A DNA stretch of 52,380 bases from Acidobacteriota bacterium (lineage in GTDB: Bacteria > Acidobacteriota > Terriglobia > Bryobacterales > Bryobacteraceae). The DNA lies in assembly GCA_016213775.1 (NCBI GenBank), contig JACQZR010000204.1:1-52380 (forward strand), written 5' to 3'. The position numbers and the translations under genes were made by a program. Shown here in pieces: positions 4,167 to 52,380 of this stretch. Below the pieces are notes generated by a model. That model was not told where the DNA came from. It saw only the letters and a list, made by a program, of their open reading frames with translations, and made no database searches. Numbering within the stretch: the first letter of the stretch is position 1; each line of letters begins with the position of its first letter.

Positions 4167-5573
<1,407 letters not shown>

Positions 5574-50136: not shown

Positions 50137-50379
50137 GTGCGAACAACAATCGACCTCGACGAAGATCTCCTCCGCACAGCCAAGGCTATCTCCGCTGTCC
50201 GTGGGCAGACTCTATCACGAGTGATTAACGACTTGGTGTGGCATGCGCTCCGTCGTGAATCAAATCAGGGCTCCACGAGGAACGGCTTTCCGATCCTGCC
50301 TTCTCGGCTTGGCGCCCAACCAGTGACACCGGACCACATCTCCGACCTTCTCGATCAGGCCTTCGGGAGTGAACCTTAA
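50137..50379 (+). CDS. vapB: VapB-type ribbon-helix-helix antitoxin
   Basis: 80 residues starting at GTG 50137: VRTTIDLDEDLLRTAKAISAVRGQTLSRVINDLVWHAL is a ribbon-helix-helix DNA-binding domain of VapB type. The tail NGFPILPSRLGAQPVTPDHISDLLDQAFG would bind the toxin. The stop overlaps the GTG start of the vapC-like frame by 11 bases, the usual coupling. The toxin partner is damaged. Confidence 0.85.
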   Translation: MRTTIDLDEDLLRTAKAISAVRGQTLSRVINDLVWHALRRESNQGSTRNGFPILPSRLGAQPVTPDHISDLLDQAFGSEP

Positions 50380-50683
50380 TCTGGCTGTTGACGTTAGCGT
50401 ATTGATTGCCATGGCCGACTCCAGTCACGTTTTCCATGACGCAATCCATGGGTGGCTGGCAGCCGCCACGGAAAAGTCATGGGGCCACCTGCCCGATTAC
50501 GGAAACGGCATGATCCGCGTGCTCACACAACCAGGCTACGGCGCTCCCGAAGGAAAGCAGGCTGGTGACTTTTTAATGCGGGTGCGGCATGGCAGGCTGT
50601 CCAGAGTGGCCTCAGTATCATGTAGTACCGTTCAGTCGAAAATAGTTCTTGACACTCGCGCACTCCTGATGCACCCTGGTTAA
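50369..50683 (+). pseudogene. vapC: Damaged vapC (PIN-domain toxin), scrambled motif and truncated end
   Basis: The frame starts like a VapC: LAVDVSVLIAMADSSHVFHDAIHGWL with the first PIN Asp. The region after KSW should read ATCPITENG in this subfamily; that text is present in the +1 frame (50484-50504), while the open frame reads GHLPDYGNG. One extra G in 50481-50484 and one missing A in 50503-50505 compensate each other, so the frame resumes with GMIRVLTQPGYG but the conserved Glu is lost. The frame stops at 50683, before the usual TDAYLL acidic motif. The toxin is probably inactive. Confidence 0.7.
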
Positions 50684-50685
50684 CG

Positions 50686-51687
50686 ATGACCGACGCGATC
50701 ATCATCCAGGGGCGCAATGTGGCCTATGCCCGCGGCGCGGTGCCCGTCGAGGACTGCATTCTCGACCCGCAAAACCCTCGGATCCAATTCATGGTCGGCC
50801 AAAGGGCCGGCCTGATCAGCGATGCCGAATTGGAGGACCTGATCTGGGATAAGGACGCCGTCAAGTCCCTCGGGCAGTCCATCCTGCAGAATGGTGGTGT
50901 CTTCGAGGCCGTAATCGTGCAGCGCCAGGGTTCCAAGTACCTCGTGCGGGAAGGCAATTGCCGAACCGTGGCCTGCCGCCGCCTACTTGCCCAATTCCCA
51001 CAGGACAATCGATTCCGGATGATGCCCGCCATGATCTTCGAGGTCGACCTGACCGAGGAAGACCTGGCGGTACTCCTCGCCGACATGCATGTCAGTGGGA
51101 AGATCCGCTGGGACGCCTATGAACAGGCCAAGCACGTCTCGGACCTGTTTCATGTCTATGGCAAGACCTACGAGTGGCTCAGTAATCACTTGCGGCTCAG
51201 CAAGGGGAAGATCCGTGAGTTGCTGGAGGCCTACCAGGCAACAACGGAGTACCTCAACCTGCACCCATCGCCACTCAACGTGAGGAAGTTCGCTGTCTTC
51301 CACGAGGTGATCAAGAAGAAGGAACTGCGGCAGCGGTTCAAGGAACTCCCAAGGTTTCGCGCATCGCTCCACCGGTGGGTTAACGAAGAGCGGATCAGCG
51401 ATTCCAGGCAGGTGAGGGAACTGCCGATGGTGCTCGCCAATCCGGAGGCTGCCAAGGCGCTGGAACAGATCGGCTTCGAGGAAGCGCAGCAGGTGCTGGT
51501 GCGCGAAGACCCTTCGCTGAAGAACGATGCCTTTCTCGCCATCAAGCAAGCGACCGAGAAGGTACGCAGCCTCCCGGCGGATGACATCCAGGACCTGAAG
51601 GCCGGCAATGCGCGTAAAATCGACATGATGCGCGATTTGTACCGCGCTATTGAAGAGGTGGCCGCATTGGCGGGCGTGAAATTCTAG
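50686..51687 (+). CDS. ParB/Srx-superfamily N-terminal domain protein, accessory type
   Basis: 333 residues. The N-terminal part (DCILDPQNPRIQF..., AVKSLGQSILQNGGVFEAVIVQRQGSKYLVREGNCRTVACRRLL) fits the ParB N-terminal (ParB/Srx) fold, with the nucleotide-binding box II read as REGNCRTVACRRL in place of GERRxRA. A helical DNA-binding-like middle follows (MHVSGKIRWDAYEQAKHVSDLFHVYGKTYEWLSNHLRLSKGKIRELLEAYQA) and then an alpha-helical C-terminus. No ParA lies beside it. It starts three bases after the broken vapC ends and is followed 13 bases later by the next gene. A partition or defence role is possible. Confidence 0.75.
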   Translation: MTDAIIIQGRNVAYARGAVPVEDCILDPQNPRIQFMVGQRAGLISDAELEDLIWDKDAVKSLGQSILQNGGVFEAVIVQRQGSKYLVREGNCRTVACRRLLAQFPQDNRFRMMPAMIFEVDLTEEDLAVLLADMHVSGKIRWDAYEQAKHVSDLFHVYGKTYEWLSNHLRLSKGKIRELLEAYQATTEYLNLHPSPLNVRKFAVFHEVIKKKELRQRFKELPRFRASLHRWVNEERISDSRQVRELPMVLANPEAAKALEQIGFEEAQQVLVREDPSLKNDAFLAIKQATEKVRSLPADDIQDLKAGNARKIDMMRDLYRAIEEVAALAGVKF

Positions 51688-51700
51688 GAGGAGACCGAAA

Positions 51701-52380
51701 TTGAAATTTGAGCAAGGGTTCGCGGATACCGAGCGCGCGGCCGTGGCGGCGGAAAAGGCAATCTCTCTGTTGTCATCGTCGGTGAAGCAACTGCACAAGG
51801 CCGCCGGAGAGGGCGACCTGCTAAAGATCAGGAAGCTGAGCGAGCGGCTCGGCGGCATTCTCGATTCCGCGCATCAGGAAGTGGCCAACGCGCAGACGGC
51901 CTGGCCCTTCACGCCGGCGGAGGAGGAAGCCTACCTCCGGGAGTCGTATGAAAGCGAACTCATCGCGGTGGCAGCGGCGGAGAACCTCCAGATCCAGAAA
52001 CGCGACGAAGGACTTGTGGTATTCCCTTCGATTGTGCGGATCTTGCCTGCCGAACTGACGGTGAAAATCAACAAGAAAAAGACAGCCGTTCGCCCCTCGC
52101 ATGTCGTAAGTATTTTGAAGGCCATACAGTCGAAGAAGCCGAAGGCACGGCCGGAGAGCTTTCTCGAAGTGCTGCATCGCGCCTACCGGCTGCTTGTAGG
52201 AAACGACTATGGCAAAACCGTGAAACTGGCGAGCATCTATGACGCGTTGACGATGCTGCCGGGGTCGTCGGCAAACTACGATCAGACCGAATTCGTCCGC
52301 GACCTGTACCTGCTCGACCGCAGCGGAGTCACGGAAACGCGATCGGGTGCGGTCTGTTCGCTCCCCGCCAGCACGGGGAC
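51701..52380 (+). CDS. Unrecognised protein paired with the ParB-like gene (runs off the window)
   Basis: TTG start at 51701 with a strong AGGAGGAGA at 51686-51694; open for at least 226 codons to the window end. The N-terminal part is helical (DTERAAVAAEKAISLLSSSVKQLHKAAGEGDLLKIRKLSERLGGIL). The middle has LVVFPSIVRILPAELTVKINKKKTAVRPSHVVSILKAIQ and ESFLEVLHRAYRLLVGND, and the end EFVRDLYLLDRSGV may be part of a winged-helix. No family assigned. The 13-base gap and strong SD say it forms an operon with the ParB-like gene, and more genes may follow. Confidence 0.7.
   Translation, partial: MKFEQGFADTERAAVAAEKAISLLSSSVKQLHKAAGEGDLLKIRKLSERLGGILDSAHQEVANAQTAWPFTPAEEEAYLRESYESELIAVAAAENLQIQKRDEGLVVFPSIVRILPAELTVKINKKKTAVRPSHVVSILKAIQSKKPKARPESFLEVLHRAYRLLVGNDYGKTVKLASIYDALTMLPGSSANYDQTEFVRDLYLLDRSGVTETRSGAVCSLPASTG

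Follow-up and report, generated by a model that had tools for sequence, protein, structure and literature searches.

In excerpts of Rakesh and Krishnan 2026 (PMC12839542), BrxD of BREX is described as an ORC-Cdc6 AAA+ ATPase that is suggested to load or activate BrxHI, its role in BREX being termed uncharacterized; inactive STAND/ORC partners are proposed there as sensors, and ParB/Srx proteins are credited with nicking single-stranded DNA. An anti-phage effect of Shango is reported in excerpted text of PMC10250203, and paired Orc/Cdc6 loci together with SspBC are presented as anti-invader loci in part of PMC10853773. Here we analyse an operon from a Bryobacteraceae genome in which a ParB-like gene and a gene named g2 precede two BrxD-like genes, A and B, and which we read as a defence operon of BrxD type, derived, lacking a helicase and furnished with a ParB module. 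No description of a ParB-g2-A-B operon was found in the literature searched, and we claim no absence beyond it.

Gene order and the contig join

The window (the whole stretch of DNA that was analysed, 52,380 nucleotides) is the entire contig C126 of a draft assembly of 11 Mb in 314 contigs, 98.5% complete. A sequence-only reading had placed two frames at the window edge, and both are present on the forward strand: a ParB-like frame from ATG at 50686 to TAG at 51687 (333 aa), and g2, which starts with TTG at 51701 and runs off the window end at 52380 after the first 226 of its 264 aa. The 13-base spacing between them was also read correctly, with AGGAGGAG at the start of the gap. Searches with the B protein and g2 of a related locus (L022) led to contig C124 of the same genome, whose initial 141 bases are identical to the final 141 of C126 (52240–52380) and whose start encodes the missing end of g2. 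Because this overlap is exact the operon can be read on into C124, the basis of the join in this draft assembly being the overlap and synteny with L022. The order is ParB-like (333 aa), g2 (264 aa), A (321 aa) and B (419 aa); numbered across the join, g2 runs to 52495, and A and B occupy 52498–53463 (C124 259–1224) and 53460–54719 (C124 1221–2480), respectively. Extension past 52380, which had been proposed as a way to find an undescribed system, thus brought two BrxD-like genes and then an ordinary ABC-transporter ATPase gene ∼660 bases 3′ of B, so that the island is only ∼4 kb, which counts against the earlier reading. Directly 3′ of B (∼2520–2860 of C124) we observed three tandem repeats of ∼100 bases each, two of which contain GTCCGATACGGAC; this stretch has matches at 17 places in the genome, its own copy counted.

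On the left flank, also on the forward strand, a VapB-like antitoxin frame (50137–50379; Pfam VapB_antitoxin E 3e-4, under its cut-off) is followed by a VapC-like frame (50369–50683) whose match to NCBIfam TIGR00028 (E 6e-9) covers only positions 3–75 of the 143 in the profile; hence vapC is truncated, as the earlier description of a damaged frame had it. Its stop ends two bases ahead of the ParB ATG, and no remainder of vapC was recognised 3′ of B when six frames were read by eye.

The ParB-like frame is not a chance ORF, since its relatives are 78, 61 and 54% identical and its pN is 0.135 versus a pS of 0.737 (comparison with the L068 copy, synonymous sites close to saturation). The L022 ParB, from a record titled Candidatus Solibacter, is 75% identical over the best segment. 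Among profile libraries the strongest matches are PADLOC PDC-M38A (E 3.8e-16) and PD-Lambda-5_A (E 4e-6), with NCBIfam parB_part at E 0.008 and Pfam ParB_N at only E 0.15. The unusual box II described earlier was borne out, EGNCR being invariant in the window protein and the three relatives aligned with it. A helix-turn-helix region is predicted in this putative ParB/Srx-type protein, and the top Foldseek rows for its model are KorB, ParB and Noc, at E 0.065 or worse; the helical part resembles their DNA-binding domains, and an unrelated protein equals the score by VIA. We take this likeness of a predicted model as support, not proof.

The g2 protein is 71% identical to its L022 counterpart and is predicted to be mostly helical, with no significant match in Pfam, NCBIfam or PADLOC. 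Searches of the PDB by sequence gave no convincing match for the ParB-like protein, g2, A or B. Of the structure predictions that had been advised for the first two proteins, the g2 model (pLDDT 48.6) is unusable. To that extent g2 remains the unrecognised helical protein of the sequence-only reading; what changes is its standing as a companion of ParB, as it is a subunit of a g2-A-B core that mostly occurs without one.

The BrxD-like pair and its wider family

PF10923 (BrxC_BrxD) matches A at 1.3e-12 (47.8 bits) and B at 7.7e-18 (65 bits), both above cut-off, and the L022 copies of both match PADLOC BrxD; the best NCBIfam match, the BrxD equivalog NF033438, gives 37 and 55 bits for A and B against a cut-off of 350, which is not reached. 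A aligns with the later part of the PF10923 profile and its P-loop is absent. The Walker A pattern GxxxxGK[ST] is found in B in 19/19 complete loci and in A in 0/19, and the DExE motif is likewise present in all 19 B proteins. In the tree, the P-loop-less A-core proteins form one clade with support 1.0. For both genes pN is well under pS, synonymous sites being close to saturation. By sequence, then, B is a BrxD-like ATPase with Walker motifs and A a P-loop-less relative of B. Distances among g2, A and B correlate (r 0.96–0.97), in a comparison made without control that may reflect merely shared ancestry.

A profile of A matched 18/396 genomes of the phylum sample; two of them, the source genome and G322, have the core form, which leaves 16 wider loci. 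Tandem BrxD-like genes occur in 11 of these 16, and the P-loop pattern is in the first gene in 11/11; eight have the order g2′-BrxD-BrxD-helicase (L162, L163, L169-L171, L173, L175, L177), and this four-gene form keeps both P-loops. Five of the 16, L178 among them, resemble Type-2 BREX in that a single BrxD is followed by a BrxHI-like helicase, which in one case is a short frame. The wider-form ATPases and helicase match SngB and SngC. No ParB matched in the 16 wider stretches, the ParB of G233 lying outside its stretch. The link between g2 and g2′ (hhalign E 0.011, probability 3.8%) has a weak score but is collinear, and the g2′ proteins of L162 and L163 gave nothing significant in Pfam, NCBIfam or PADLOC. 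The core thus leads to a four-gene relative in Acidobacteriota that opens with a protein unmatched in every library searched.

In the stretches fetched for the 20 core loci, phmmer detected no BrxHI-like helicase, and a profile of 12 BrxHI-like helicases reached at best 23.9 bits in core loci, to PbeA of L082; the three helicase matches of the source genome are all on other contigs. We infer that a single loss of the P-loop accompanied loss of the BrxHI-like helicase.

Distribution and neighbourhood

With a B profile built from the copies of the source genome, L022 and G322 (threshold E 1e-10), the g2-A-B core was found in 19/257 Bryobacterales genomes at varied places. The 20 core loci are these 19 and G322 from the phylum sample, L067 being L022 repeated. 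All three genes were recovered in 19 of the 20, as L070 begins inside A at a contig end, and in most loci they overlap by 4 bases or almost abut. In L022 the operon is ParB-HNH-g2-A-B, with an HNH gene that the operon here does not have. A ParB lies upstream of the core in 4/20 loci (the present one, L022, L068 and L074), being divided between two contigs in L074 (G523), and no ParB matched in 14/18 judged loci, with L070 and L072, which start at a contig end, excluded. Judged from their ORFs, core loci in the order mostly sit among ordinary genes, which counts against a defence role. The whole-genome searches covered Acidobacteriota, so a restriction to Bryobacterales is valid only for that sample. 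No relative of B, A or g2 was found in plasmid records, nor among the 21, 30 and 51 stretches of viral contigs that fit the respective patterns. Two core loci have other features upstream of g2: at ∼6500–8000 of L047 there are broken frames, which may be the remnant of a DUF499-like ATPase, and at 5317–6024 of L083 (G634) a ParA/MinD-family ATPase precedes g2-A-B.

The window ParB itself matched 9/257 Bryobacterales genomes at E 1e-10, six of them under 1e-90, and 4/6 of these have the core. In the phylum sample it matched 12/396 genomes at E 1e-3, and two besides the source genome fall under 1e-90 (G233 and G026), both without the core. Across both samples, 4/8 genomes with a close ParB thus have the core, those without it being G400, G608, G233 and G026. 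ParB relatives are on seven plasmid records, all at <60% identity, and on none of the phage records. Toxin–antitoxin genes adjoin a close ParB in three loci, namely vapBC here, HTH_3 and Gp49 in L022, and TacA and GNAT in L099, a count made without control. One short contig (L102, G426:C994) carries four ParB-like genes, three in tandem. Distant relatives recur in a cassette of ParB, small protein, helicase and ParB, also with a DGQHR/DpdB-like protein, a radical-SAM protein and a GHKL-type ATPase, in L026, L103 and L104 (Acidobacteriota) and L140, L141 and L142 (plasmids of Bradyrhizobium, Roseomonas and Rhizobium); profiles were run on L026 only, the other loci being read from annotation or sequence starts. 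This cassette has the look of a DNA-modification or defence system not yet described.

Two congeners, G524 and G523, carry ParB-g2-A-B at differing places: G524 has what is presumably a thrS-like gene on the left and a serA-like gene on the right, and G523 presumably a lipA-like gene on the left, all as read from sequence starts. An orthologue of the left-flank gfo gene (65–80% identical) is present in 10/11 congeners, and within ∼8–10 kb of it (∼3 kb for one) the island and the ABC genes of the right flank were both absent. The neighbourhood around gfo itself is not conserved among congeners, and no empty insertion site was found in the stretches fetched from the 11. Hence the comparison with relatives that the sequence-only reading had called for placed the left flank and yielded no uninterrupted site. 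Its mobile island finds backing in the truncated vapC and the different places in the two congeners, from which we consider the operon likely to be mobile; against it stand the missing empty site and a GC content of 0.602 for the island versus 0.601 for the window, the same as the genome.

Several relatives of ParB or of the core lie beside defence genes. In L082, PbeA (5e-207) comes right after B and is followed by PbeC (5e-116), with a RecB-like nuclease-helicase on the opposite side; in L079 a DpdE-like helicase (2e-175) precedes g2 and another SNF2 helicase follows B. In G233, ParB-HNH is transcribed away from PDC-M61AB and PglW, and the contig also has BrxD- and BrxHI-like genes ∼18 kb off, a Type-2-BREX-like island; in G026 the ParB is near a NotI-type gene, a methylase (PD-Lambda-5_B-like) and a DruE-like gene. 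The flanks scanned with PADLOC were chosen by eye, so we claim no enrichment. With the two further BrxD-like genes in the operon, these neighbours agree with the defence-type setting suggested earlier.

Proposed function and relation to known systems

From neighbours and homology, a role in defence is inferred. That the four genes make up an anti-invader operon built on BrxD-like (ORC/Cdc6-type AAA+) proteins, with ParB as a targeting or cutting module, is a proposition to which we give an even chance. A and B would form a mixed AAA+ assembly on DNA, in which A may have a structural or sensing part and g2 may bind DNA or act as an adaptor. Such an assembly would load a BrxHI-like helicase in the wider family; here the helicase is missing, and the ParB-like protein might instead target or cut DNA once foreign DNA is recognised, perhaps helped in one relative by a separate HNH nuclease. 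The ideas on BrxD, STAND/ORC partners and ParB in the excerpts of PMC12839542 are in this way mapped tentatively onto A, B and ParB. A more specific version seems doubtful at present: the operon would encode an immune complex of its own, distinct from both BREX and Shango, whose active and catalytically dead BrxD-type subunits patrol DNA together with g2 and license the ParB/Srx-type protein, in some strains along with HNH, to nick or cut invading DNA in exchange for the former helicase effector. In any case, a ParB-like protein stands beside a BrxD-type core where relatives have a helicase, and with its three genes, among them those for a live and a dead BrxD-type subunit, that core would offer a minimal setting for asking what such ATPases do.

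That ParB and the core act together is likely but not proven, given that half of the genomes with a close ParB have no core and 14 of the 18 judged core loci have no ParB. These counts also suit a rival of limited probability, namely that two units happen to adjoin: ParB, alone or together with HNH, would be an accessory restriction pair of Type-IV-like character that works independently of g2-A-B. ParB-HNH occurs without the core in G400 and G233 and ParB without it in G026, and the ParB-bearing loci do not form a single clade in the core tree. However, ParB precedes the core on the same strand in 4/6 order genomes with a close ParB (with HNH in between in G619 and a ParB divided between two contigs in G523), and the hypergeometric P is 3e-4 over 257 genomes, or 2.7e-3 with one of the two congeners dropped, which is the only correction for kinship, the ParB threshold having been chosen after seeing the list. 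Moreover, the five genes of L022 each overlap by 4 bases.

It is improbable, and more so than two separate units, that the proteins serve DNA repair or replication as a housekeeping complex resembling a helicase loader, and not defence. Their relatives are of the ORC/Cdc6 type, the wider-form helicase resembles the ligase-associated DNA-damage helicase TIGR04121 (6.5e-62, 209 bits versus a cut-off of 850), and in L175 and L177, from two genera of one family, the wider form is followed by the same gene, so that it could be a housekeeping system there; but the core occurs in no more than 19 of the 257 Bryobacterales genomes and lies at differing loci, once by PbeA/PbeC and once by DpdE, which argues against this reading. 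A remnant of a plasmid or integrative-element partition locus is hardly credible and was rejected: membership of the ParB family and a G203 frame that reads, from its start, like ParA near a ParB homologue would favour it, but the operon of four genes includes no ParA, as had been noted for the window, the partners are BrxD-like, and ParB_N finds its best match in this genome on another contig (C130, 110 bits).

Returning to the defence operon, its nearest named ParB-like profiles are PDC-M38A and PD-Lambda-5_A of PADLOC; these profiles are longer (428–715 positions), only their first part is matched, and the operon has no methylase. The paired Orc/Cdc6 loci and SspBC share with it, in the text excerpted from PMC10853773, an Orc/Cdc6 ATPase with a degenerate copy or a winged-helix subunit; in the paired loci, however, the second copy keeps Walker A and has Walker B disrupted, whereas here Walker A is lost, and the partners differ. 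Shango (SngABC) has an ATPase and a helicase of the same kind as the wider form, but the core has two ATPases and no helicase, plus a ParB. TerB profiles (SngA-like) in Pfam and PADLOC did not match g2, whose model is of too low confidence to add to this, and since the operon has no helicase and TerB was not found, it is not Shango as defined. With the BrxD-BrxHI pair of Type-2 BREX it shares two proteins of the BrxC/BrxD family (PF10923; best NCBIfam NF033438), but it has two BrxD-like proteins, one without a P-loop, no BrxHI-like helicase, and scores far from the BrxD cut-off. Nor is it BREX, as no PglZ (PF08665) was found in its own nearly complete genome, in a search whose control matched 2/14 genomes. 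The operon may nevertheless work like a module of the BrxD-BrxHI kind, as a variant of which we class it by analogy, and it is apparently a compact and undescribed variant of the BREX/Shango kind of defence.
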